The position numbers and the translations under genes were made by a program. Under the pieces are notes generated by a model. It was not told where the DNA came from. It saw only the letters and a list, made by a program, of their open reading frames with translations, and did no database searches. From Cyanobium sp. Cruz CV13-4-11 (GTDB taxonomy: Bacteria > Cyanobacteriota > Cyanobacteriia > PCC-6307 > Cyanobiaceae), in assembly GCF_024346055.1 (NCBI RefSeq), contig NZ_JAGQCH010000010.1:1-64000 (forward strand): DNA of 64,000 nucleotides. The letters run 5' to 3'. Below, piece by piece: positions 52,866-64,000 of the stretch. How positions within the stretch are numbered: the first letter of the stretch is position 1; every line of letters starts with the position of its first letter.

Positions 52866-53953
52866 TGGTGCTCCTTTCCGAGGTGGTCGAACGCCACCAG
52901 GGCGAACTGGAGCGGCTGCATGGCCCCCAGCTGCTGCCAAGCCACTACCAGGCACTGCAAGCCATGCGGCGCTGCCGCCGCCAGGGCGGCGACCTGATGG
53001 TGCTCCGCTGCAGCGACTGCAGCCACAGCCTCAAGGTTCCCCACTCCTGCGGCCACCGCAGCTGCCCCCACTGCCAGCACACGGACAGCCAGCGCTGGAT
53101 CGAGCGGCAGCAGGCCAAGCTGCTGCCGGTGGAGTACTTCCTGATCACCTTCACGGTGCCAGCCGAGCTGCGGGCTCTGTTCTGGAGCCAGCAACGCATC
53201 ACCTACGACCTGCTGCTCAAAACCGCCTGGCAAACGGTGGATTCCTTTGCCCGCAAAGATCCAAAACTGAAAGGAATCACAGGAGCGCATGCGGTGCTGC
53301 ACACCCACAGCCGCCGCCTGGACTTCCATCCCCATGTGCACTTGATTGTGCCCGCTGGTGCCATCCACCACCAGCAATCAGCACCAGTACAGGGGGGAGG
53401 AGGTCAGCGAAAATGGCAGTGGAAAGAGAGGGGCTATCTCTTCCCGGCCGCCAACCTGGCCAAGGTGTTCCGCGCCAAATGGCTGGACGGCATGCGCAGG
53501 GCCGGTTTGCGCGTGCAGGCAACGATCCCAAGGGACTGGGTGGTGCATTGCCAATCAGTCGGCAGTGGCCAGAAGGCGCTGGTGTACCTGGGTCGCTACC
53601 TCTACCGCGGTGTGCTCCCCGAGAAAGACATCCTCAGCGATCGCGATGGCCTGATCACCTTTCGCATCCGCGACAACAGCGGTGCGGTGCTGATCCAGAG
53701 CCTGCCTGGCGCAGAGTTCCTGTGGATGCTGCTGCGCCATGTGCTGCCCAAGCGCTTCCGGCGCGCCCGCGACTACGGCCTGCTCCACGGCAACAGCCAG
53801 AAGCTGCTGCAGACAGTGCAACTGCTGCTGCGCGTCGTGCTGCCGGAACCATGGCGACCCCAGCCCAAACCACCGATCCACTGCCCGCACTGCGGCGGCG
53901 TGATGGCGATCATCGCGGTGCGCGTGCGAGAGATCAACCCAGCGCCAGCTTGA
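52862..53953 (+). CDS. IS91-family HUH (Y2) transposase
   Basis: 363 residues. The N-terminal zinc finger reads LRCSDCSHSLKVPHSCGHRS followed by CPHC; the relaxase core has the metal motif HPHVHLIVPAGA (HxH) and the two catalytic Tyr in LVYLGRYLYRGVL (YxxxY spacing). It transposes by rolling-circle replication using single-stranded DNA. Start GTG 52862 or ATG 52865, overlapping the recombinase stop. A HIP1 octamer at 53637 inside it suggests long residence in cyanobacterial genomes. Confidence 0.92.
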   Translation: MMVLLSEVVERHQGELERLHGPQLLPSHYQALQAMRRCRRQGGDLMVLRCSDCSHSLKVPHSCGHRSCPHCQHTDSQRWIERQQAKLLPVEYFLITFTVPAELRALFWSQQRITYDLLLKTAWQTVDSFARKDPKLKGITGAHAVLHTHSRRLDFHPHVHLIVPAGAIHHQQSAPVQGGGGQRKWQWKERGYLFPAANLAKVFRAKWLDGMRRAGLRVQATIPRDWVVHCQSVGSGQKALVYLGRYLYRGVLPEKDILSDRDGLITFRIRDNSGAVLIQSLPGAEFLWMLLRHVLPKRFRRARDYGLLHGNSQKLLQTVQLLLRVVLPEPWRPQPKPPIHCPHCGGVMAIIAVRVREINPAPA

Positions 53954-54030
53954 ATCCATCAACACGCGCAAGCAAATAAGCCGTAGTGAGTAGCACCTGC
54001 AGACAATGATGGCCCGTTCGCAACCAGAAC

Positions 54031-54367
54031 TGGCCTGCTGGGCTGTCTGCGTGCCTAAACTGGAGAGTGCAACAGCTCAACCGGTTCGTGCTGCCGTCTG
54101 TAGGACATTTCACCTAGGGCAGAAGCCAAAGAAAACCTGAAAAATGGCCTGATTCTTCTGCAGTGGGCCCAGGGCCTCAACGTTGCAGGCTTGTTCAACT
54201 GCGGATAAGATCGTGGCTGCGCACGATCTATCCATATTCGTTGCACGATCTATCCATATTCGTTAGCTTGTCAAGCTGGAATTTAATGGCTGCTTAAAGG
54301 GCCCGAATCCGGTCAGTGTTGCAAAGCAATATTACCCTTGTTCAATTGAATCTAGTTCTCAACAAAG
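54031..54367. other. Gene-free stretch between the IS91-type element and the amylase gene
   Basis: No convincing ORF. It holds a hairpin GATCGTG (54209-54215) / CACGATC (54222-54228) that leads straight into the tandem repeat listed next. Composition changes here from GC-rich to AT-rich. Confidence 0.5.
54221..54264 (+). repeat. Two tandem copies of a 22-bp repeat
   Basis: The unit GCACGATCTATCC plus ATATTCGTT occurs at 54221-54242 and again at 54243-54264 with no mismatch and no spacer. Its first bases also form the right arm of the preceding hairpin. It sits about 240 bases before the likely amylase start. Confidence 0.9.
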
Positions 54368-54505
54368 ATGCAGGATCGCATGCGCATGGCAGTGAGCAGC
54401 CCCAAGTATGCAAAAGTCTTGATTTCTGAACATTATTACTGGCTTCCTCTGTCTCAGAGTATCGTTAAAAAATCTTTTCTTGTGGAGCCAACATTATGCC
54501 TGAGC

Positions 54506-56194
54506 ATGCCGATGGAGTTTTGTTTCAGTTTTTTTCATTGGTTCCTCGATAAAGATGATTCTTTTCAGGCCAATAAACCTTTATGGAGCTTCTTAAAGGA
54601 TGAGGCTGATCATCTTCGAGATATTGGCATAGATGCGGTTTGGATTCCACCAGCTTACAAAGGAGCAAGTGGTGACAATAGCAGTGGGTATGATGTTTAT
54701 GATCACTTTGATCTGGGGGAGTTTAATGCCAGAGGCTCCAGGAGAACTAAGTATGGCGAAATAGAGCAGCTACATGATGCCATCAATGCGCTTCATGGAT
54801 ACACAAAAAATGCCTCTGGTGCTTTAGTGCCAGATGGCAACAAAAGATATATCCAAGTTTATGGAGATATTGTCCTCAACCATCGAGCGGGAGGATCTGA
54901 AAGCGATTTCTGGCAGGCAGTTAGGGTCGAGAAAGAGGACAGAACACGAGAGAGGTGGGAATCAGGTTATGAAAGTGGACTGATTGATATCAAGTCTTAC
55001 ACAACTTTTGACTTCCCCGAAAGGGCTAATCAGTATTCCGATTTTAAGTGGACATCCCGACACTTTGATAGTGTCGATACTACAGTCAAAATTAGACAAG
55101 ATGGCAATGACTTTATTGAGACAGGAGGGAAAGACGGGAAATATATTTATCGATTTGTGTTTAATGAACCTGGCTATATCCCACAAATAAAAAACTTTGA
55201 AAAATGGGTCTCTCTGGAAAAAGGGAATTATGACTTCCTTCAAGACTCTGATTTTGACTATGGTCGATTTGATGTTCGAGAGGAGATGAAGCATTGGGGA
55301 ACATGGTTTTCAGCCAAAGTTGGCTTAGATGGATTTAGGCTAGATGCTGTAAAGCACATCACTGCTGGTTATGTCCGAGAATGGGTTGGTCATATGAGAG
55401 CCAAAGCAAATAAGCCTTTCTTTACAGTGGGTGAGTATATCGCTGGTGACACACCTATGCTACACAGCTATCTTACCGAAGTCACAGCTAAGGGTTCGTA
55501 TCCTCAGGATATTAGTTTGTTAGATTTTCCTCTACGATTTAAGTTTAAGAGTGCAAGCTGGTCTGGACAGTCATTTGATCTGCGAGAGCTTAACCAAAAT
55601 ACCTTAATGGCTGAGCAGCCCGCCAAGGCAGTGACATTTGTTGAAAATCATGATTATCAATTTGGCAGAGAACTCGACTCTCATGTCAAGGAATGGTTTA
55701 AACCATTGGCCTATGCTTTTATTTTGCTGAGGGAGCAGGGATATCCTTGCGTTTTCTTCCCAGACTACTATGGCTCTCATGATAAGGATAATCATAAAGC
55801 TCAGCCCAGTGGCAGAGACTATATCAGCCTGCTTTTAAAGCTTAGGAAGCAATTTGCGTTGGGAGATGAACGTTTCTACGCCCATAGTGACATTGTTGGT
55901 TGGGTTAGAATGGGGGGAGTTTCTAATGCAATAGGAGCAATGGCCGTAACCATGAGCAATTCCTATAGTGCTATCAAAGCAATTAGAATGAATACTGGCC
56001 GCTTTAATAAGCGGTTCTATCATCTGGCAACCATCAAGCTAGTTGGCAATCAATATGTCATTTCTAGAGCCAACTATGATGTTTTCGGAAGCAAGTCAGA
56101 AGGGTTAATGACCGATCAATATGGATGGGCTGAGTTCGTTGCCGAAGGGGGTTCCGTTACCATCTGGATTGAGGATGGTGTCGGGTTAAGTTGA
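54506..56194 (+). CDS. Alpha-amylase (GH13, cytoplasmic type)
   Basis: Hydrolyses alpha-1,4-glucans. The GH13 barrel is recognisable: FSFFHWFLDKDD, DAVWIPPAYKGASGDNSSGY, VYGDIVLNHRAGG (region I), GLDGFRLDAVKHI (nucleophile Asp), FTVGEYIAG (acid Glu) and TFVENHDYQFG (third Asp). The order and the NSSGYDVYDHFDLGEF motif fit the GH13_5 intracellular group. No signal peptide. The frame is open from 54368, but family sequence begins at about 54506 (MPMEFCF). About 560 residues. It is strikingly AT-rich with AT-ending codons, unlike nearly all other genes here, so recent transfer is likely. Confidence 0.88.
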   Translation: MPMEFCFSFFHWFLDKDDSFQANKPLWSFLKDEADHLRDIGIDAVWIPPAYKGASGDNSSGYDVYDHFDLGEFNARGSRRTKYGEIEQLHDAINALHGYTKNASGALVPDGNKRYIQVYGDIVLNHRAGGSESDFWQAVRVEKEDRTRERWESGYESGLIDIKSYTTFDFPERANQYSDFKWTSRHFDSVDTTVKIRQDGNDFIETGGKDGKYIYRFVFNEPGYIPQIKNFEKWVSLEKGNYDFLQDSDFDYGRFDVREEMKHWGTWFSAKVGLDGFRLDAVKHITAGYVREWVGHMRAKANKPFFTVGEYIAGDTPMLHSYLTEVTAKGSYPQDISLLDFPLRFKFKSASWSGQSFDLRELNQNTLMAEQPAKAVTFVENHDYQFGRELDSHVKEWFKPLAYAFILLREQGYPCVFFPDYYGSHDKDNHKAQPSGRDYISLLLKLRKQFALGDERFYAHSDIVGWVRMGGVSNAIGAMAVTMSNSYSAIKAIRMNTGRFNKRFYHLATIKLVGNQYVISRANYDVFGSKSEGLMTDQYGWAEFVAEGGSVTIWIEDGVGLS

Positions 56195-56387
56195 CTTAAC
56201 TTTCTGGCCTGCGAAGTTTCTCTTGCTTTATTCAATCTAACACTTGCTCATCACGCACGCCGCCGAGGGTACTGGCGGAACCGAATAGATGTCCGCTAAC
56301 AATGCCATACACCAGAGCCGCAAATAGAGGATAAGCTCGATGTCTCAAGGCCTCTGCGGCCTGGTGATGGCAAGCGTTAGAGCGCAA

Positions 56388-57392
56388 TCAATACTCCTGC
56401 CTCCCCCCAATCCCCCCCCCCCCCCGCACCCCACCCCGCGGCTCCTCGCAATCCCCCTCCCGCCGTGGAATCAGATGCCAATGCGCATGAAACACCGTCT
56501 GCCCCGCAGGTTCACCTGAATTCAACCCCACATTCCAGCCACTGATCGACGCATCCTGGGCGCTCAGCTGCTCCCGCCGCAGCTTCAGCAGCTCCACCAC
56601 TGCGTTCCATTCCGGCTGGTGCAACGCCAACCCATCGGCACCATGCCGCCGCGGGATCAGGCTGTGCCCAGGCGACACCGGATAGGCATCGGCGATGCAC
56701 AACGCCAGTTCGTTCTCCAGCAGCACCCGGCCGGTGCCCTCCAGCGCGCAGAACGCACAACTGTCCTGGCGATGGGCATAGCTGGCCTGCAGGCCGCGGA
56801 AGTCTGTGGAGTCCGTGTCGCGCTTGCCGGCATTGCAGCGGAAGCAGAGGGCCTGCAGGTTGCTGAGGTCGTCCGAGCCGCCCTGGTTCCTGGGCACGAT
56901 GTGGTCCACCTCCAGGGCCCTTTGATGCTCGTGGGCGCCGCAGCATTCGCAGCGGCCCTTTGCCCGGGTAAGCACCCGGTATTTGATCGAGCCGCTGATC
57001 GGGGTGCGGTGGCGGCTCCTGTGGGCGAACACCTCCTGGCCGCGCTGCTCGCGGAAGGCATCGAGGCGCTGGCGGCACAGCTGCAGCAGCTCGTCGCGCT
57101 CGGCGTCGCTCAGTTCCTCGCCGCCCACAAGGTCGTAGGCGCCTTGGTCGTAGCGGGTGATGCCGTTGCCGGTGAGGACCTTGCCCACCATCCGCTTGAC
57201 GCGTTCGGTGTAGTAATCGATCTGGGTCACGTCCTCCCCCAGGATCCGCCGGGCCACGTCCTGCGCGGGGGCTGGGCTGCGCCGACCAAGGAGCTCCATG
57301 AGCATTAGGGGCTGGTAGACGTGGCTCATTCGCATGCGCCTCGCGATGTAGTCGCGCAGGCGCTCGTAGGTGGGGGAGGGGGTTGGGGGCAT
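56388..57392 (-). CDS. HNH endonuclease-HIT domain fusion protein
   Basis: 334 residues. The N-terminal 115 are helical and unassigned. An HNH nuclease domain follows (about 135-195: KGRCECCGAHEHQRALEVDH, IVPRNQGGSDDLSNL, LCFRCNAGKRD) with zinc Cys pairs and catalytic His164. Next is a HIT domain (about 210-312: CAFCALEG, YPVSPGHSLIPRRH, and the triad FHAHWHLIPR, H302-H304-H306). HIT proteins act on nucleotides, so the fusion could join DNA cleavage with nucleotide sensing or removal; this is inference. ATG at 57392 was chosen where family-like sequence begins. A run of 14 G near the 3' end encodes a poly-Gly tail. Confidence 0.85.
   Translation of the reverse strand: MPPTPSPTYERLRDYIARRMRMSHVYQPLMLMELLGRRSPAPAQDVARRILGEDVTQIDYYTERVKRMVGKVLTGNGITRYDQGAYDLVGGEELSDAERDELLQLCRQRLDAFREQRGQEVFAHRSRHRTPISGSIKYRVLTRAKGRCECCGAHEHQRALEVDHIVPRNQGGSDDLSNLQALCFRCNAGKRDTDSTDFRGLQASYAHRQDSCAFCALEGTGRVLLENELALCIADAYPVSPGHSLIPRRHGADGLALHQPEWNAVVELLKLRREQLSAQDASISGWNVGLNSGEPAGQTVFHAHWHLIPRREGDCEEPRGGVRGGGGIGGRQEY
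56412..56425 (-). repeat. Homopolymer of 14 C/G inside the HNH-HIT gene
   Basis: Fourteen C on the plus strand (G14 in the coding strand) at codons about 324-328, just after the HIT domain. Gain or loss of one base would change the last few residues and the stop. Confidence 0.9.
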
Positions 57393-57510
57393 GGGGAGAT
57401 CTTGGCGCTGTGGGGGCCAGTGCTGGGGCGGGGTGTGACGGGGGGTGGCACTGGTGGGGGAGAGAAGCATTGACGCGATGCCACGACCTCCACGTAGCAC
57501 ACGCGCTAAC

Positions 57511-57846
57511 ATGGACAGGTCATTTCGCCTTGCTTACTTCAGTCCTCGCGTTCGCGAGGAGATCGAATCGTGGCCTGTCGACCTGCTGGCCCGTTGTGAT
57601 GAACTCCTGGACCTGCTGGAAGACCATGGCCCCCTGCTGGGCTCGCCACACTCCAAGGCCCTCGGCGAGGGCCTATTTGAACTCAGGCCCAAAAGCCGCA
57701 GCGGGACTGGCAGGGCGTTCTTCTGTTATTGCAGTGGCCGCATGATCATCGTGCTCCACGCCTTCATCAAGAAGACGCAGAAAACGCCCCAGCGCGATCT
57801 CACCATTGCCCGGAACCGAATCAAAGAGATCAGGAATCATGGCTGA
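57511..57846 (+). CDS. HigB/RelE-type toxin (phage Gp49-like)
   Basis: 111-residue protein of the RelE superfamily, Gp49-like branch: FSPRVREEIESWPVDLLARC, HSKALGEGLFELRPKSRSGT, RAFFCYCSGRMIIVLHAFIK, KKTQKTPQRDLTIARNRIKE. Such toxins cleave mRNA on the ribosome. ATG at 57511. It comes before its antitoxin gene and overlaps it by 8 bases, the reversed order typical of HigBA. Confidence 0.85.
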   Translation: MDRSFRLAYFSPRVREEIESWPVDLLARCDELLDLLEDHGPLLGSPHSKALGEGLFELRPKSRSGTGRAFFCYCSGRMIIVLHAFIKKTQKTPQRDLTIARNRIKEIRNHG

Positions 57847-58147
57847 CATTGCCTACGAACCGCTGATCCGCGACCGCGATAGTGAGCGGAGCCGCGCCGC
57901 GACGATCCCCGGCTATACGGAGGCCAGGCAGGAAGCCGCAGCGGAATTCCGCCTGCTACGCGAGCTTCTTGATGCTCGCAAACGGGCTGGCCTGACCCAG
58001 GAGGACGTGGCACTGCGCATGGGAACGACCCGCAGCGCCATCAGCCGGCTGGAGGGATCCCGCAAGCACCTTCCCGCGTTGTCAACCCTTCGCCGCTACG
58101 CCGATGCGCTCGGTTGCGATGTGGTGATCCACCTCGTTCCTCGTTAG
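57839..58147 (+). CDS. HigA-type antitoxin (XRE helix-turn-helix)
   Basis: 102 residues with a C-terminal XRE/Cro HTH: LDARKRAGLTQEDVALRMGT, TRSAISRLEGSRKHLPALST, LRRYADALGCDVVIHLVP. The N-terminal 40 residues would bind and block the toxin. Its ATG lies inside the end of the toxin gene, so the pair is one operon that the antitoxin probably represses. Confidence 0.88.
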   Translation: MADIAYEPLIRDRDSERSRAATIPGYTEARQEAAAEFRLLRELLDARKRAGLTQEDVALRMGTTRSAISRLEGSRKHLPALSTLRRYADALGCDVVIHLVPR

Positions 58148-58598
58148 AGGAGGGTGGTTGCCATTCCTTTTTGCCGCTCTCGGAAAGCATTGAGGCGCTG
58201 GCTGCGCAGATGCAGCAACTGGTCGCGTTCGGCGTCGCTCAGTTCCTCGCTGGCGGTGGTGGCGGGGACAGCGGTGGCGGTAGTGATGGTGGTGGCAGCC
58301 CCGGCAGCTCAGCACGCCCTGCCCGCGGCCTGCTCTGGCCGCGGGGCATTTAATCGAGGCTGGCTAAAGCAGTCTCAAGCTCTGGCCAGGGCTTCTGCAA
58401 CTTTGTGGCGCAGAAAGTGTTGAAAGTTATGTACTCAGAGATCATCACACCTTGATCCGCAAGGATTTTCCCCCATATTCGCCTTCCGAGATGGACGGAT
58501 TTTCGTCAATTCAGACGCATTAAACGCCATAAGCGTAAGTCGTTGCCGCCCTGCCAAAGTGCCTGAAAAAATAATTCCTACGCACGAGTGCGACATCG
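58148..58598. other. Gene-free stretch with a remnant of an HNH-HIT-like gene
   Basis: Bases about 58172-58253 closely resemble 57044-57125 of the HNH-HIT gene in the same orientation; on the minus strand they read EELSDAERDQLLHLRSQRLN, then AFRERQKG, against ELSDAERDELLQLCRQRLDA in the intact protein. The rest is low-complexity Gly/Ser-type sequence and unassigned DNA up to the membrane protein gene. Confidence 0.75.
58320..58351 (+). terminator. Possible terminator hairpin after the toxin-antitoxin pair
   Basis: TGCCCGCGGCC (58320-58330) pairs with GGCCGCGGGGCA (58337-58348) with one bulged G and a 6-base loop; only a short TTT follows. A strong hairpin but weak T tract, about 170 bases after the antitoxin stop. 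Confidence 0.35.
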
Positions 58599-59822
58599 CT
58601 AGCCAGCAAGATGGGCAACTCCGAGCTTAAAAGACTCATAAAGATAGACAAGATTAAGAGGAAGAAGTATAAGCGCAAGCACATAAACAAGCAAAGTGAT
58701 GCTCTTCTTGTGGGCCTCAGGCATGGCGGTTAATCCGTACCCAGCCAGCAATACCATGGCCGGTACATAGTGGGCGGAATACAAGAAAGGACTATCCCCA
58801 TAGAATGAATGAAGAAGAAACTGAAAACCCAAAAAACATGCCAAAGCAATGCTGACAGAATTGTCTCTTCGCGAGAGAGCGGCATAAATTCCATTAAAGA
58901 GCAGCGCCAGCCAAGCCGTCGCTGTACTGATACGCAATAGCGAAATATCACTCCAGCCTGGCAGCGCAAACGTGAATTGCGAATACCTGCCTTCCCCAAT
59001 AATTACTGAGGGAGTCAAAGGGGCAACAGGCGCAACAAAAAACTGATAGGCAGTTTCAAACGGTCGAACACTTCTTTTGATGTATGTGCGCTCTTCACCA
59101 AGTTGAAACGGCAAGCCCGCCGAGGGCAGATACGCTTTTTGTACACAGATCAAAAGACTGGTCAATAGCAAAGTCATCCCGCACAACCCTAGAAATGCTT
59201 TTCTCAGGCCGAAACGTACGAGAGAAGCTATTAAGCCAGCACCCCAGTTCGTGGTTGTCATCGAAAGTGAGCCAACTAAAGCCATTACCCAAACCTTATG
59301 AGACTTAATGTTGTATGCAAGCAGAATAAGAGGCAGTAAAATCGTCACTGCTCCCAGGGGAAAGGTTTCGGGCGTAGACCACCAAAACAGGAAGGCAGTC
59401 GACGAAAGAAATAGCAGGGATATACCAAGCGATGCGAACCTAGAAAGGCCCATCCTGATTGCCAATAAATAGATAAGGATCCACGTCGCACCCGCAGACA
59501 TTGACGTGACGAATTGAGCGGCGATACCCTTGGAAAGGCCACCATCAAAACCCATTAACCTGCCGATCCAATATACAGGCCGAGCGACAGGAAGAACAAT
59601 AAGAGAAAACAGCGGATGGACTTTTAGCCTGTAATGATTAGCCAGTGGCTCGGCCATGTCATTTATCACCCTTCCAATATCAGCCCCAAACCACAAGTTG
59701 GGCTCAATCCTGACATTATTAGGGAATACTGCTGACAGCACTCCACTCAATGCGAAGGCAAGAAAGAAGCCCGCAATTAATAGCTTCTTTCTCATTACCA
59801 TGCTTAAAATGCGAATAGCCAT
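58599..59822 (-). CDS. Polytopic membrane protein, GT-C glycosyltransferase-like
   Basis: 407 residues with about 9-11 hydrophobic helices (KLLIAGFFLAFALSGVLSAV; FPLGAVTILLPLILLAYNI; SITLLVYVLALILLPLNLVY). After helix 1 comes an acidic outer loop (RIEPNLWFGADIGRVINDMA) and NHYRLKVHPLFSLIVLP, resembling the catalytic loop and HP motif of GT-C lipid-linked sugar transferases (GT39-like). No exact family is recognised. It lies 64 bases after the HAD-flippase gene on the same strand and is AT-richer than the core genes. Confidence 0.65.
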   Translation of the reverse strand: MAIRILSMVMRKKLLIAGFFLAFALSGVLSAVFPNNVRIEPNLWFGADIGRVINDMAEPLANHYRLKVHPLFSLIVLPVARPVYWIGRLMGFDGGLSKGIAAQFVTSMSAGATWILIYLLAIRMGLSRFASLGISLLFLSSTAFLFWWSTPETFPLGAVTILLPLILLAYNIKSHKVWVMALVGSLSMTTTNWGAGLIASLVRFGLRKAFLGLCGMTLLLTSLLICVQKAYLPSAGLPFQLGEERTYIKRSVRPFETAYQFFVAPVAPLTPSVIIGEGRYSQFTFALPGWSDISLLRISTATAWLALLFNGIYAALSRRDNSVSIALACFLGFQFLLHSFYGDSPFLYSAHYVPAMVLLAGYGLTAMPEAHKKSITLLVYVLALILLPLNLVYLYESFKLGVAHLAG

Positions 59823-59886
59823 TGTGGTAGACCAAGTGGAATGATGTTTAATCCAGTCAACGCCTCAAGTGAGCCTGCTGTCATGA

Positions 59887-61446
59887 TTATCTTTGTCGCG
59901 GCCATAGAAGGCACGCAACTCCCATGGCTGTGGAGAACCAAAGGGTCATTAGCCTGATTAGCAAAGTCGCAGCGGTAGCTATCGATAAAGGTACGCCCTG
60001 CAGAGAAAGCAAGCCTATTGTACTTGCTTCACTGCTTCCTAGCCCACCTGGGAGCAACGTTATTACACCTACTAGGCATGCAAGAGTATGGGCGATTATC
60101 GCGCCGCCAATATCCACAACTTCAACGCCCATCCCTCGAAGCAGCAGCCAGATGCTCAGCCCTTCCAGGCTCCAAGCCACCGCCCCAATAAAGGTGGATT
60201 GGAGAAGCAACCAAGGTCGCAAGAGCTGCCTCAGCGCCGAAAGCCCCTCGCTGCCGGCACTGGCTAGCCTGGAGGGCAGCAAACTTTTTGCGGCAACCTT
60301 GAGCTGTCTCTTGGCCCATTGATTCCGCAAAACCAACGAACAAATGAGAACAATAAGTAGTCCAGAACCAATCGGAACCACTAGGGGAACATCGCCACTA
60401 AACAGTAGAGGAAGATTTAGAGATAACAAGACCAGCACAGCTAAGCCGTCAGTGATTCGCTCCACTACTAGTGCCATTAATGTGGGCGGAATTGGAATCC
60501 CGCACTCCTGATTCAATAGAAGCGCGCGCACTGCTTCTCCAGATTTGCCAGGTGTTGCAGTGAATGCATATGAGCCCATCCAGATACGCGCATCAGCTGA
60601 AATCAGCGGTTTTTGGTTTATGGATGCGAGGAGTGATCTCCAGCGGCTATAGCGGACTGCAAATGCCAGAAGCACTAATAGCAATCCCTGGCAAATCTGA
60701 GGCCACAAGCTTCGCAATAGAGGCAGCAATCGATCACCCTGAATCCAAACTCCTAGCAGCCCATAGCTCAGTAGTGCAATCGCCACGACCAGCAATGGTG
60801 GCCCAAGAGAGAAAGCCGGATAGGAACAGGGTTCGCTCAGAAAACTGCGATAATGAGGAAAATCAGCAGCCTGGAGAATCTCGCGATCGCCCTTACTGTC
60901 GCCGTAGGCCTCAATCGAAAGCCCATCCAATGGGCCCAGATGCTGCTCGAGGCGACACACCTTCTCCGGGCCCTTGCAGTTAAGGCTCGCCAACTTGGGG
61001 ATCCAGCGCCCGTCGTGTTGCTGCAGTTCGGTGCAGAGCAGCTCTACTCCGAGCCAATCGGCCAAGGGCTGCAAGAGCAGCCGGGGCGAGGCTGAACACA
61101 GCAGCACCCGGTCACCGCGCTGCTGGTGCCAGCGCAACCGCTGCAGCGCCTCCGGCCGCAGCTGTAATCGCAGCGCGCCCAGCAGCCAATCAGCGTGCCC
61201 CGCAGCTTTAGCACGGTTGGCCGCCTCACACACACCAAAGGCGGCAATGGTCTGCTGCTTGAACCGGCCGGTGCTCACCAGTCGTAACTGCCAGCCAATC
61301 AGCCAGGGCAGAACGGCCACGGCGGCCAGTAGCAGCTGCCCTATGGCTCCCTTGGAGCGGCGGGCGGCCAGCCACAGGCAATCGCCCCGCAGCAACGTGC
61401 CATCCACATCAAAGACCGCGACCCTGTTGCCCACCGTCTGGCCCAT
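59887..61446 (-). CDS. HAD phosphatase fused to a flippase-like membrane domain
   Basis: 519 residues. Residues 1-200 are a HAD-IB phosphatase: motif I VFDVDGTLLRGD (D13, D15), motif II LLCSASPRLL, Lys in LNCKGPEKV, motif IV EAYGDSKGDREIL (D183, D187). From about 216 to the end is a polytopic domain of the LPG-synthase-TM/UPF0104 type (LLVLLAFAVRYSRWRSLL; TPGKSGEAVRALLLNQECGI; LLPGGLGSSEASTIGLL). It overlaps the UbiA gene by one base (TGATG). With that gene it could dephosphorylate and flip a polyprenyl-linked pentose (inference). Composition changes near the domain junction. Confidence 0.85.
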   Translation of the reverse strand: MGQTVGNRVAVFDVDGTLLRGDCLWLAARRSKGAIGQLLLAAVAVLPWLIGWQLRLVSTGRFKQQTIAAFGVCEAANRAKAAGHADWLLGALRLQLRPEALQRLRWHQQRGDRVLLCSASPRLLLQPLADWLGVELLCTELQQHDGRWIPKLASLNCKGPEKVCRLEQHLGPLDGLSIEAYGDSKGDREILQAADFPHYRSFLSEPCSYPAFSLGPPLLVVAIALLSYGLLGVWIQGDRLLPLLRSLWPQICQGLLLVLLAFAVRYSRWRSLLASINQKPLISADARIWMGSYAFTATPGKSGEAVRALLLNQECGIPIPPTLMALVVERITDGLAVLVLLSLNLPLLFSGDVPLVVPIGSGLLIVLICSLVLRNQWAKRQLKVAAKSLLPSRLASAGSEGLSALRQLLRPWLLLQSTFIGAVAWSLEGLSIWLLLRGMGVEVVDIGGAIIAHTLACLVGVITLLPGGLGSSEASTIGLLSLQGVPLSIATAATLLIRLMTLWFSTAMGVACLLWPRQR

Positions 61447-62375
61447 CAGCTGACCCTGCTGAGCAACCCGATCACCGCTGTCGTCACCAACCACCCCACC
61501 AGGGTGAGCTTGATGCCCCGATCCCCCAGCCGGATCTCCTCCGGCTTCTCGCTGCTTTGCTCAGGCGTCCGCTCCCGCCGCCGCTCCGCTTCCTCCGGGT
61601 CGCTCAGCAGCTGATACCGAAAGATCCCCACCAGCACGAACGGCACCGTCAGCAGCATCCAACTCGTCGGTGCCCCCCGCAACGCAGGGCCCGCCGCCCA
61701 GAGGGAGTAGCTCATGAAAGCGCTGGTGGCCACCGTGCTCTCCAGCCGCAGTAGCAGCGGCAGCGAATAGCGCTCGAGCACCTTGCGGGTGATCACGCCC
61801 CGGACCTGAGCCACCTGCAGCTCAGCCTTGCGCTTCTCGATCGCCAGAAAGAGAGCTAGCAGCCCCGCCGTGAGCAGGAACCAGGGCGACGGCGGTACCT
61901 GTGCCGCAACGGCACCGGCAATGGCCCGCAGCAGGAAGCCGGAAGCAATGCAAAAGATATCCAGCAGCGGCACCCGCTTGAGCTGCAGGCAGTAGCCCAC
62001 CTGGATCAGTCCGTAGAGCAGCACCACCCCGGCCAGGGCAGGCGCCACCCAGGCCGCCAGGGAGAGGCTCACGACCGCCAGCACCGCAGCGGTCGTCAGG
62101 GCTGCCGGCATGCTCACCAGTCCGGCGGCGATCGGGCGGTTGCGTTTAGTGGGATGGGCGCGATCGGCTGCCACATCCAGGCAGTCGTTCAGAAGGTAGA
62201 TGGCACTGGAGATCAGGCAGAACGCCACCAGTGCCCCTGCGGCCGGCAGCCAGACGGCGGCCTCAAAGCGGAAGGCGAACAGCGGCGCCGCGAACACAAG
62301 CAGGTTCTTGGTCCACTGCCGCGGACGGCAGGCAGCCATCAGCGCAGGCAGGGTGTCAGTACGGCCAGCAGCCAT
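61446..62375 (-). CDS. UbiA-family decaprenyl-phosphate phosphoribosyltransferase-like protein
   Basis: 309-residue membrane prenyl-/phosphoribosyl-transferase. The first Asp-rich motif LLNDCLDVAADRAHPTKRNR (N63, D64, D67, D71), the start ACRPRQWTKNLLVFAAPLFA, and LDIFCIASGFLLRAIAGAVA agree with DPPR synthases, which join PRPP and polyprenyl phosphate to give polyprenylphosphoryl-5-phosphoribose, precursor of lipid-linked arabinose in actinobacteria. About eight to nine membrane helices. First gene of the three-gene cluster. Confidence 0.83.
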   Translation of the reverse strand: MAAGRTDTLPALMAACRPRQWTKNLLVFAAPLFAFRFEAAVWLPAAGALVAFCLISSAIYLLNDCLDVAADRAHPTKRNRPIAAGLVSMPAALTTAAVLAVVSLSLAAWVAPALAGVVLLYGLIQVGYCLQLKRVPLLDIFCIASGFLLRAIAGAVAAQVPPSPWFLLTAGLLALFLAIEKRKAELQVAQVRGVITRKVLERYSLPLLLRLESTVATSAFMSYSLWAAGPALRGAPTSWMLLTVPFVLVGIFRYQLLSDPEEAERRRERTPEQSSEKPEEIRLGDRGIKLTLVGWLVTTAVIGLLSRVS

Positions 62376-63296: not shown

Positions 63297-64000
63297 TTGA
63301 GCCATCCATTTTGGCCTAGGGAGCCATTGTCGCCCTCCCCCAGCCCCAAACCGCCCAAACCCTTCAGGTCTTACTCCGAACTCGTTGATCTCCTCAGCGC
63401 GAGAGGGATGGACGTCGGGCCTGACCCTCAGCGAGCCGCTCGAAAGCTGTCGCAGATTGGCTACTACCGCCTGAGCGGCTTTTGGTACCCATGCCGCGAA
63501 ATTGAAATCGATTCTCAAGGAGAAGCTGTTCTCGATACACAAACTGGTAAGCCCAGGCGCCTTGATGCCTTCATGCCGGGCACAAGCCTGCAGGGGATTT
63601 TAGATTTATATCTGTATGACAAGCGTTTAAGGCTCGCCGTCCTTGATGCCATTGAGAGGATTGAAGTTCATCCGAACCGTAATAGCACATGAGCTTGGGC
63701 GCCTCGACCCCGTCGCGCACACGATGGCTAGCTTCATCAATCAGCGTTTTCTGCAAGACTATCAGGACAGAAAGTCTCGCAAAAAGCGCAACACCTGGAA
63801 TGAGTGGGTCGAAGATCACGGGAAGCACCTCTCTCGCTGCTCTGAGGACTGCATCCTCTGGCACAAGCAGAACGACAAGACCATGCCATTTTGGGTTGTC
63901 GTAGAAGCGTGGAGCTTCGGGCTGGCTTCTCGGTATTACGGTCTGCTCAAACGGCGTCACCAGCTAGAAATCGCCAAGCGCTTTGAGATTGACAACCCAA
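63297..64000 (+). pseudogene. Abi-family (AbiD/AbiF-like) protein, frameshifted and cut by the window edge
   Basis: The first frame (63297-63672) codes FRSYSELVDLLSARGMDVGP, RAARKLSQIGYYRLSGFWYP, GTSLQGILDLYLYDKRLRLA and LDAIERIEVH, typical of the Abi_2 family, then reaches a stop at about 63690. The rest continues in the next frame from 63673: RTVIAHELGRLDPVAH, KKRNTWNEWVEDHGK and MPFWVVVEAWSFGLASRYYG, open to the window end. One extra base near 63671 (or two missing) explains it. Family members abort phage infection in lactococci, but the role here is unproven. Start uncertain (TTG at 63297 or 63327). Confidence 0.82.

Follow-up and report, generated by a model that had tools for sequence, protein, structure and literature searches.

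A pathway that is fed by phosphoribosyl pyrophosphate (PRPP), builds a lipid-linked ribose and employs a flippase and a GT-C glycosyltransferase without DprE has been demonstrated biochemically in Citrobacter (Kelly 2024, PMC11127046). As set out in the main text of that report, the Citrobacter youngae O1/O2 loci encode a polyprenyl-phosphate 5-phosphoribosyltransferase (PPPRS) with a fused HAD domain (ORF15), a predicted MATE flippase (ORF14) and the GT-C enzyme that founded family GT136 (ORF12). Epimerases appear there as optional additions, and a change of sugar upon gain or loss of an epimerase gene is suggested. A second reference is the mycobacterial decaprenylphosphoryl-arabinose (DPA) pathway, comprising Rv3806c, Rv3807c, DprE1/DprE2, Rv3789 and the Emb/Aft enzymes, in which, according to PMC11127046, Rv3807c has no relation to the HAD phosphoribose phosphatases (PRPs). 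The third is formed by the N-terminal flippase domain of MprF and UPF0104 proteins such as GpgF, which PMC12713373 presents as the predicted flippase of a modified lipid, with its activity not verified. Here, we compare these systems with a three-gene cluster in the draft genome of Cyanobium sp. Cruz CV13-4-11 (3.41 Mb in 52 contigs, rated 100% complete). The window, meaning the whole stretch of 64,000 nucleotides that was analysed, corresponds to bases 1-64000 of contig C2. The cluster encodes a UbiA protein (P0003), a fusion of a HAD and an LPG_synthase_TM domain (P0002) and a polytopic protein with a predicted GT-C fold (P0001; Table 1).

We read this trio as a compact, DprE-free three-component pentofuranose system for the synthesis, export and transfer of polyprenyl-phosphate-ribofuranose, with a probability of about 0.65. 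We infer every catalytic step and the flipping from homology, fold and neighbourhood, and likewise infer which sugar and acceptor are used and how the locus arose. More specifically, the UbiA protein would combine PRPP with polyprenyl phosphate to give polyprenyl-P-ribose-5-P, from which the HAD domain would remove the 5'-phosphate at the cytoplasmic face to leave polyprenyl-phosphate-ribofuranose. The MprF-type half of the same chain would then move this lipid to the outer leaflet, where the GT-C protein would pass the ribofuranose to an outer acceptor, either a surface glycan or a protein. A compact pathway for lipid-linked ribose or another pentose had been proposed in the first-pass annotation; the present analysis supports that proposal, and neither the grouping of the UbiA protein, nor the gene neighbourhoods, nor the predicted fold of the third protein refuted it.

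Among the references, the Citrobacter system is the closest in function. Like it, the trio would combine a UbiA-type PPPRS using PRPP with a HAD phosphatase, a flippase and a GT-C protein, and the O1 (ribose) version likewise lacks DprE; the Asn/Asp motifs of the two PPPRS proteins are spaced identically (N247, D248, D251 and D255 in Citrobacter, N63, D64, D67 and D71 in the window). In contrast, the HAD domain is joined to the PPPRS (ORF15) in C. youngae, next to a separate predicted MATE flippase, whereas in the window it is joined to the MprF-type LPG_synthase_TM domain. The GT-C proteins probably belong to different families, with P0001 weakly resembling DUF6080. Since the cluster would work like the Citrobacter system but joins its HAD domain to another protein and uses a flippase, and probably a GT-C, of another family, we regard it as a variant and not a first.

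Comparison with the mycobacterial DPA pathway reveals a first enzyme homologous to Rv3806c and a GT-C fold that P0001 has in common with AftA, AftB, AftD and Emb. The window differs in that no DprE1 was found, the phosphatase is of the HAD type and the flippase candidate comes from another family. The DPPR-type pathway had been introduced in the first-pass annotation as the actinobacterial arabinose route; the pathway type is not limited to that route, given the DprE-free lipid-ribose system of Citrobacter (PMC11127046). With the MprF flippase domain and UPF0104 proteins, the fusion shares the LPG_synthase_TM family and fold, and it differs from proteins such as GpgF in its linkage to a HAD phosphatase and in its proposed cargo, a polyprenyl-phosphate sugar. 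In the open-access literature, we found no publication on this cluster or on DUF6080, and the main text of PMC11127046 nowhere uses the word stem 'cyanobacter'. The principle itself is published; the domain arrangement, the GT-C family, the cyanobacterial setting and the apparent arabinose-to-ribose conversion were not found in print.

All three open reading frames (ORFs) are intact, match their relatives in length and lie head to tail on one strand. The UbiA stop and the start of the fusion gene share the bases TGATG (61448-61444), and 64 bases separate the fusion gene from the GT-C gene, in agreement with the anatomy described from the sequence at first.

By family, the UbiA protein is a predicted polyprenyl-phosphate phosphoribosyltransferase. 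It belongs to PF01040 (E 3e-27, Pfam) and exceeds the cut-off of the NCBIfam model NF008978 for decaprenyl-phosphate phosphoribosyltransferase (DPPRS; 255.1 bits, cut-off 207), while remaining below the cut-offs of two sister models of the same name (NF008976, 229.7/474; NF008977, 202.8/234). The only close solved relatives in a PDB search were the Rv3806c entries 8j8j (E 8e-49) and 8j8k. The Rv3806c residues to which binding of Mg, ribose, 5'-phosphate and pyrophosphate is ascribed (Lys28, Asn73, Asp77, Gln135, Lys143 and Lys208; PMC10994848) align with identical residues in the window protein (K23, N63, D67, Q125, K133 and K198). Furthermore, the Asp motif that had been called DPPR-synthase-like, N63-D64-x-x-D67-x-x-x-D71, is invariant in the five aligned orthologues, window's included. 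The proposed phosphoribosyltransferase activity is, judged from these sequence features, very probable.

Membership in PF01040 would also suit a prenyltransferase of the ordinary quinone, chlorophyll or heme type. This we consider extremely improbable: the quinone, heme and chlorophyll UbiA models stay far under their own cut-offs, and we ruled this assignment out on the equivalog-level NF008978 match together with the PRPP residues. A tree of 36 UbiA proteins places the window's as sister to that of the nearest relative, genome G620 (99/91), beside DPPRS-like proteins, in a six-member clade where every protein but the window's comes from a DprE1 cluster. The four other UbiA proteins of the window genome sit on very long branches with unsure placement; two of them attach in the open part of the tree that also contains the window's cluster protein, which speaks for the ordinary-prenyltransferase alternative.

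The second gene joins a phosphatase and a membrane domain in one chain, as the first-pass annotation had stated. The HAD domain matches PF12710 (E 8e-30, residues 10-191) and TIGR01488 (69.7 bits, cut-off 45) and lies just under the cut-off of TIGR01490 (91.9 against 98.3). The LPG_synthase_TM domain matches PF03706 (E 5e-38, 131.6 bits against 33.4, residues 221-509) and TIGR00374 (83.3 against 43.2). Residues D13, D15, S120, K162, D183 and D187 of the HAD domain are invariant in seven aligned fusions, and we take them to have catalytic roles. Of 386 cyanobacterial genomes searched, 7 (the window's among them) have a match to P0002 that spans its two domains. In the predicted structure (predicted local distance difference test, pLDDT, 74.3; predicted template modelling score, pTM, 0.49), the HAD part resembles 3fvv (Z 19.2) and the LPG part the flippase half of MprF (6lvf; Z 22.6, root-mean-square deviation (RMSD) 4.0, 260 residues aligned); given the pTM of 0.49, the mutual placement of the two domains is unsure. 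From these family and fold matches, removal of the 5'-phosphate by the HAD domain appears quite probable, and a flippase role for the LPG_synthase_TM domain reasonably likely.

For P0001, the sole Pfam match is DUF6080 (PF19558) at 21.7 bits, under the gathering cut-off of 27; searches of Pfam, NCBIfam and PDB sequences returned no family over its cut-off and no solved relative. Its AlphaFold model (pLDDT 71.6, pTM 0.79, from an 11-row alignment) aligns best with ALG12 (9s6t; Z 22.8, RMSD 3.6, 325 aligned) and ArnT (5f15; Z 20.0, RMSD 4.2, 325 aligned), followed by AftD (Z 17.3), AftB (17.1), EmbB (16.4) and AftA (15.1). By its predicted fold, P0001 is therefore a GT-C glycosyltransferase, in line with the earlier suggestion for the third protein. 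Foldseek gave a weaker signal, with a best E of 4.6e-4 (ALG12) and just two matches at E <=0.001. The 50 structural matches listed are all GT-C enzymes, oligosaccharyltransferase structures or glycosylphosphatidylinositol (GPI) transamidase, although such lists cannot exclude other families; chain U of the GPI transamidase is one that we take to be GT-C-like. The acidic outer-loop residue and HP motif noted from the sequence recur across the alignment, window's row included (D48 in 10, H69 in 10 and P70 in 9 of 11 rows). Residues kept in at least nine rows include D48, R51, R65, H69, E152, N192, Q228, Y341 and Y348, and D48 lies in the loop after the first transmembrane helix (residues 2-32) of the model.

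Long unassigned ORFs and glycosyltransferase candidates from DprE-type clusters (seven proteins) were tried as orthologues of P0001 and rejected, since phmmer matched none of them within an E limit of 10. Six of them have no Pfam match and one, in locus L034, belongs to GT87.

The distribution of P0001 relatives bears on where the gene may come from. P0001-like sequences occur in 3 of 400 genomes of the family and 9 of 367 of the phylum, with the window genome counted in both. Ten genomes were used for the neighbourhood comparison: G708, G334, G191, G346, G135, the Leptolyngbya of locus L042, and G162, G067, G234 and G345 of f31. The window genome was left out, as was G590, where the P0001-like gene is in pieces at contig ends and DprE1 belongs to another, complete cluster. 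In eight of the ten (not in G234 or G345), the GT-C relative has a DPPRS-like UbiA within 5 kb, and DprE1 is absent in nine, with no match at 1e-10 or only 57-65 bits in the four f31 genomes. Without these four weak matches, the figures are 6/6 for UbiA and 5/6 for the lack of DprE1. The adjoining UbiA exceeds the NF008978 cut-off in G334 and G708, and those of G191, G346, G135 and L042 match P0003 by phmmer. The neighbourhood proved to be conserved elsewhere, a point on which the first-pass annotation had made its reading depend.

In G334, G191, G346 and G135, UbiA and a P0001-like GT-C accompany a YqeG-like HAD protein, with no DprE1 match. The gene next in line encodes this HAD-IIIA phosphatase, assigned to YqeG over the NCBIfam cut-off in G334, G191 and G135 and by Pfam and similarity in G346. 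An SMR protein then follows in three of the four, that of G334 being weakly like ArnE and ArnF, below their cut-offs. The 126-aa ORF between HAD and GT-C in G135 has no family match and does not resemble any of the three SMR proteins; its reading frame is possibly incorrect, hence the count of three. A YqeG-type HAD and an SMR protein next to UbiA and GT-C suggest that an unrelated phosphatase and flippase candidate fill the same slots.

Lipid-linked ribose might be made here while the GT-C protein uses another polyprenyl-phosphate sugar, its co-location being incidental. GT-C folds are common to enzymes of many donors, no characterised member of the P0001 family was found in profile, structure-sequence and literature searches, and the relative in G234 adjoins a uridine-kinase-like protein instead of UbiA. 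We nevertheless consider this improbable: all three family genomes with a P0001-like sequence hold UbiA, as against 37 of 400 overall, in a count that includes the window genome where the cluster was noticed, and GT-C relatives in other families also lie near UbiA. Use of lipid-linked ribose as the donor of P0001 is the option that we hold to be likely.

Several of these loci show features of their own. In the probably Prochlorococcus-like genome G708 (1.6 Mb, 29% GC in the stretch read), UbiA and GT-C stand side by side on opposite strands (L160). The P0001-like ORF of Leptolyngbya SIO4C5 (L042:6123-9158) spans 1011 aa, reaches 25.7 bits against DUF6080 (cut-off 27) and is weakly similar to glycoside hydrolase family 15 over residues 832-931 (17.3 bits, cut-off 22); long GT-C ORFs also occur in G334 (1084 aa) and G346 (1111 aa). 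In G234, the weak GT-C relative (L197:7826-10170) follows a protein that is like uridine kinase or phosphoribulokinase.

We then turn to the sugar. The first-pass annotation had seen no DprE-like epimerase in the window, and this holds more widely: neither the window nor the remainder of the draft (3.4 Mb) yielded a DprE1 orthologue, the best NF053785 scores being 44.6 and 38 bits against a cut-off of 500. Four FAD_binding_4 genes are present, with only weak similarity to the relatives' DprE1 proteins (27% over 174 aa at the best tblastn E, 2e-6); PF04030 makes a weak test for DprE1 because it misses the relatives' DprE1 too. The search for DprE2, a short-chain dehydrogenase/reductase (SDR), covered the 20 kb read around the cluster and gave no match. 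Since the draft shows no DprE1, the delivered sugar is probably ribose and not arabinose.

Relatives are organised in a different manner. G266, G264 and G620 carry, in this order, UbiA, the fusion, another LPG_TM, DprE2 and DprE1, with the DprE1 of G266 scoring 520 against the cut-off of 500. Among the 400 family genomes, 37 have UbiA, 31 have DprE1 (24 over the cut-off) and 30 have both, within about 6 kb of each other in all 30. UbiA without DprE1 is found in the window genome (G000), G511, G561, G568, G625, G704 and G708, of which G561, G568 and G625 are 54-78% complete; G441 has DprE1 without UbiA, its cluster running into a contig end. G620 carries the LPG_TM-DprE2-DprE1 tail twice (L152 and L163), once on a 4.2 kb contig (G620:C79), which may mean that the tail was duplicated or is mobile, or that this contig is a contaminant.

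This linkage in 30 of the 37 UbiA genomes, together with the sister position of the window UbiA to one from a DprE1 cluster, the 52-contig assembly and the pairing of a P0001-like GT-C with DprE1 in L042, would fit a cluster that still serves arabinofuranose, through an unlinked or unrelated epimerase or through DprE1/DprE2 in an assembly gap. We judge this unlikely, although the least unlikely of the alternatives. It would have to accommodate the best DprE1 score of 44.6 bits in the genome and the lack of DprE1 in nine of ten other genomes with a GT-C relative; moreover, no contig break interrupts the cluster, which means that the epimerases are truly missing there.

The composition of the cluster suggests how a ribose-type system may have arisen. 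The flippase half of gene 2 has a GC content of 52% and the GT-C gene of 47%, against 67% for the window. GC at third codon positions (GC3) is 83% in UbiA and 75% in the HAD half, and 49.5% in the LPG half and 47.5% in the GT-C gene, falling from about 80% to about 48% across a junction inside the fusion gene; in G620, it is constant at 83-87% through UbiA, HAD and LPG. Divergence from G620 follows the same pattern. The UbiA proteins are 94% identical (nonsynonymous divergence, dN, 0.037; synonymous divergence, dS, 0.276; dN/dS about 0.13), HAD residues 1-150 are 92% identical and the LPG half 72%, whereas the G620 LPG half shares 86-90% identity with its counterparts in G513, G539 and G266. 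Values of dS rise from 0.28 in UbiA through 0.42 in HAD (dN 0.048, dS 0.422 in the codon alignment) to 1.1 over residues 151-205 and 2.3, near saturation, in LPG. DNA similarity to the compared G620 stretch extends from about 63,033 to 59,898, ending with the fusion gene.

Gene 2 is thus a mosaic. In the simplest reading of these sequence patterns, an exchange within it put a low-GC tail in place of the native one, LPG_TM-DprE2-DprE1 included. The incoming tail appears to have brought another flippase half and the GT-C gene, and the cluster appears to derive from an arabinose-type one. To the lipid-ribose reading of the first-pass annotation this adds something that had not been seen from the sequence alone, namely the putative descent of the cluster from a DprE-containing arabinose-type cluster with loss of the epimerases by recombination in gene 2. 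In its boldest form, which we hold only tentatively and at somewhat less than even odds, a single recombination in the fused phosphatase-flippase gene turned an arabinofuranose system into a ribofuranose one, removing DprE2/DprE1 and bringing in a GT-C from a family of mostly DprE-free clusters; that GT-C would represent a new ribofuranosyltransferase family, and the fusion would pass its product to its own flippase.

The same exchange could instead have destroyed the arabinose system and left genes that are now being lost. Relatives do show decay: G511 has a broken UbiA, as does G590 in its second copy, G625 (77% complete) retains UbiA with only a short HAD stretch, and the P0001-like gene of G590 is fragmented at contig ends. 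A remnant in the window is improbable in our view, since its ORFs are as long as those of relatives, and the divergence from G620 has a dN/dS of about 0.13 in UbiA and of 0.048/0.422 in the HAD part. The putative graft also left the fusion gene in frame and added a GT-C whose relatives adjoin UbiA in eight of ten other genomes.

Several observations weigh against the proposed ribofuranose system. The 52-contig assembly leaves room for DprE1 in a gap, and the genome-wide search was aimed at DprE1, not at DprE2-type SDRs or unrelated epimerases. The graft could come from a donor with epimerases upstream, in which case the window genome lost them by accident. L042 holds a P0001-like GT-C plus DprE1 (471 bits), so that the GT-C family is not strictly ribose-linked. 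The four f31 relatives are weak profile matches (39-61 bits); G234 and G345 have no UbiA near the GT-C, within the neighbourhood searched and for G345 up to its contig ends, and the UbiA proteins of G162 and G067 fall below the DPPRS cut-offs of NCBIfam. G708 combines UbiA and GT-C with no match to the HAD or LPG part of P0002 at 1e-5. Finally, D48 sits in a stretch of the P0001 model with pLDDT <50.

Outside the family, a contig scan kept 80 of at least 283 loci encoding a relative; both search patterns lie in the HAD domain, which is why HAD is present in these loci largely by construction. HAD was the only domain in 28 of the 80, UbiA occurred in 48, and 22 combined UbiA, HAD and LPG_TM, 13 of these with DprE1. 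The other nine comprise seven Burkholderiales loci and L052 and L053, which are cut by contig ends. No DprE1 match above 76 bits was found in any of the seven Burkholderiales genomes (completeness not given), compared with 418 and 488 bits in two genomes with DprE1. The Burkholderiales loci (L057, L078, L088 and kin) share the same four functions with no DprE1 orthologue found; they differ in having HAD and LPG_TM in separate genes and, in all three loci scanned of the seven, a PMT_2 GT-C.

In the boldest form of the reading, the GT-C family would constitute new extracytoplasmic ribofuranosyltransferases across cyanobacteria, occurring in a small low-GC member of the same family and as far away as other classes of the phylum. 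The HAD-MprF-type chain would then act as a phosphatase passing its product directly to its own flippase, and the fusion offers a test of coupling between dephosphorylation and flipping. The mosaic gene would possibly be a natural case of the sugar change through epimerase loss proposed in 2024 (PMC11127046).

Table 1. Positions, in window coordinates, of the genes, domains and compositional features of the cluster.
Feature	Position	Strand	Description
UbiA gene	61446..62375	-	309 aa (P0003); predicted polyprenyl-phosphate 5-phosphoribosyltransferase, PPPRS/DPPRS-like
HAD-LPG_synthase_TM fusion gene	59887..61446	-	519 aa from ATG (P0002)
HAD-IB domain of fusion	60832..61419	-	Residues 10-205; proposed 5'-phosphate remover
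LPG_synthase_TM/MprF-type flippase domain of fusion	59920..60786	-	Residues 221-509
GT-C fold polytopic protein	58599..59822	-	407 aa (P0001); proposed ribofuranosyltransferase
Approximate putative recombination junction in fusion gene	60830..60970	-	Codons ~160-205; GC3 drop and dS rise against G620
Low-GC tract	58501..60900	no strand	Flippase half of gene 2 and GT-C; read as a graft where G620 and others hold LPG_TM-DprE2-DprE1

The surroundings of the cluster contain further genes. Downstream of the GT-C gene, on the opposite strand, a Gp49-family gene (PF05973) and a helix-turn-helix gene (57445-58147) form a pair that we take to resemble HigBA/RelE-type toxin-antitoxin modules. A single ORF at 56388-57512 combines HNH endonuclease and HIT domains. 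A second low-GC island at 53751-56500, down to 42% GC against 67%, was probably acquired and includes a 608-aa protein of the alpha-amylase family (54368-56194; PF00128, E 3e-15). On the other side of the cluster, an Abi_2-like gene (63297-63999) is split by a frameshift or sequencing error into two overlapping frames, each covering one part of the Pfam model.

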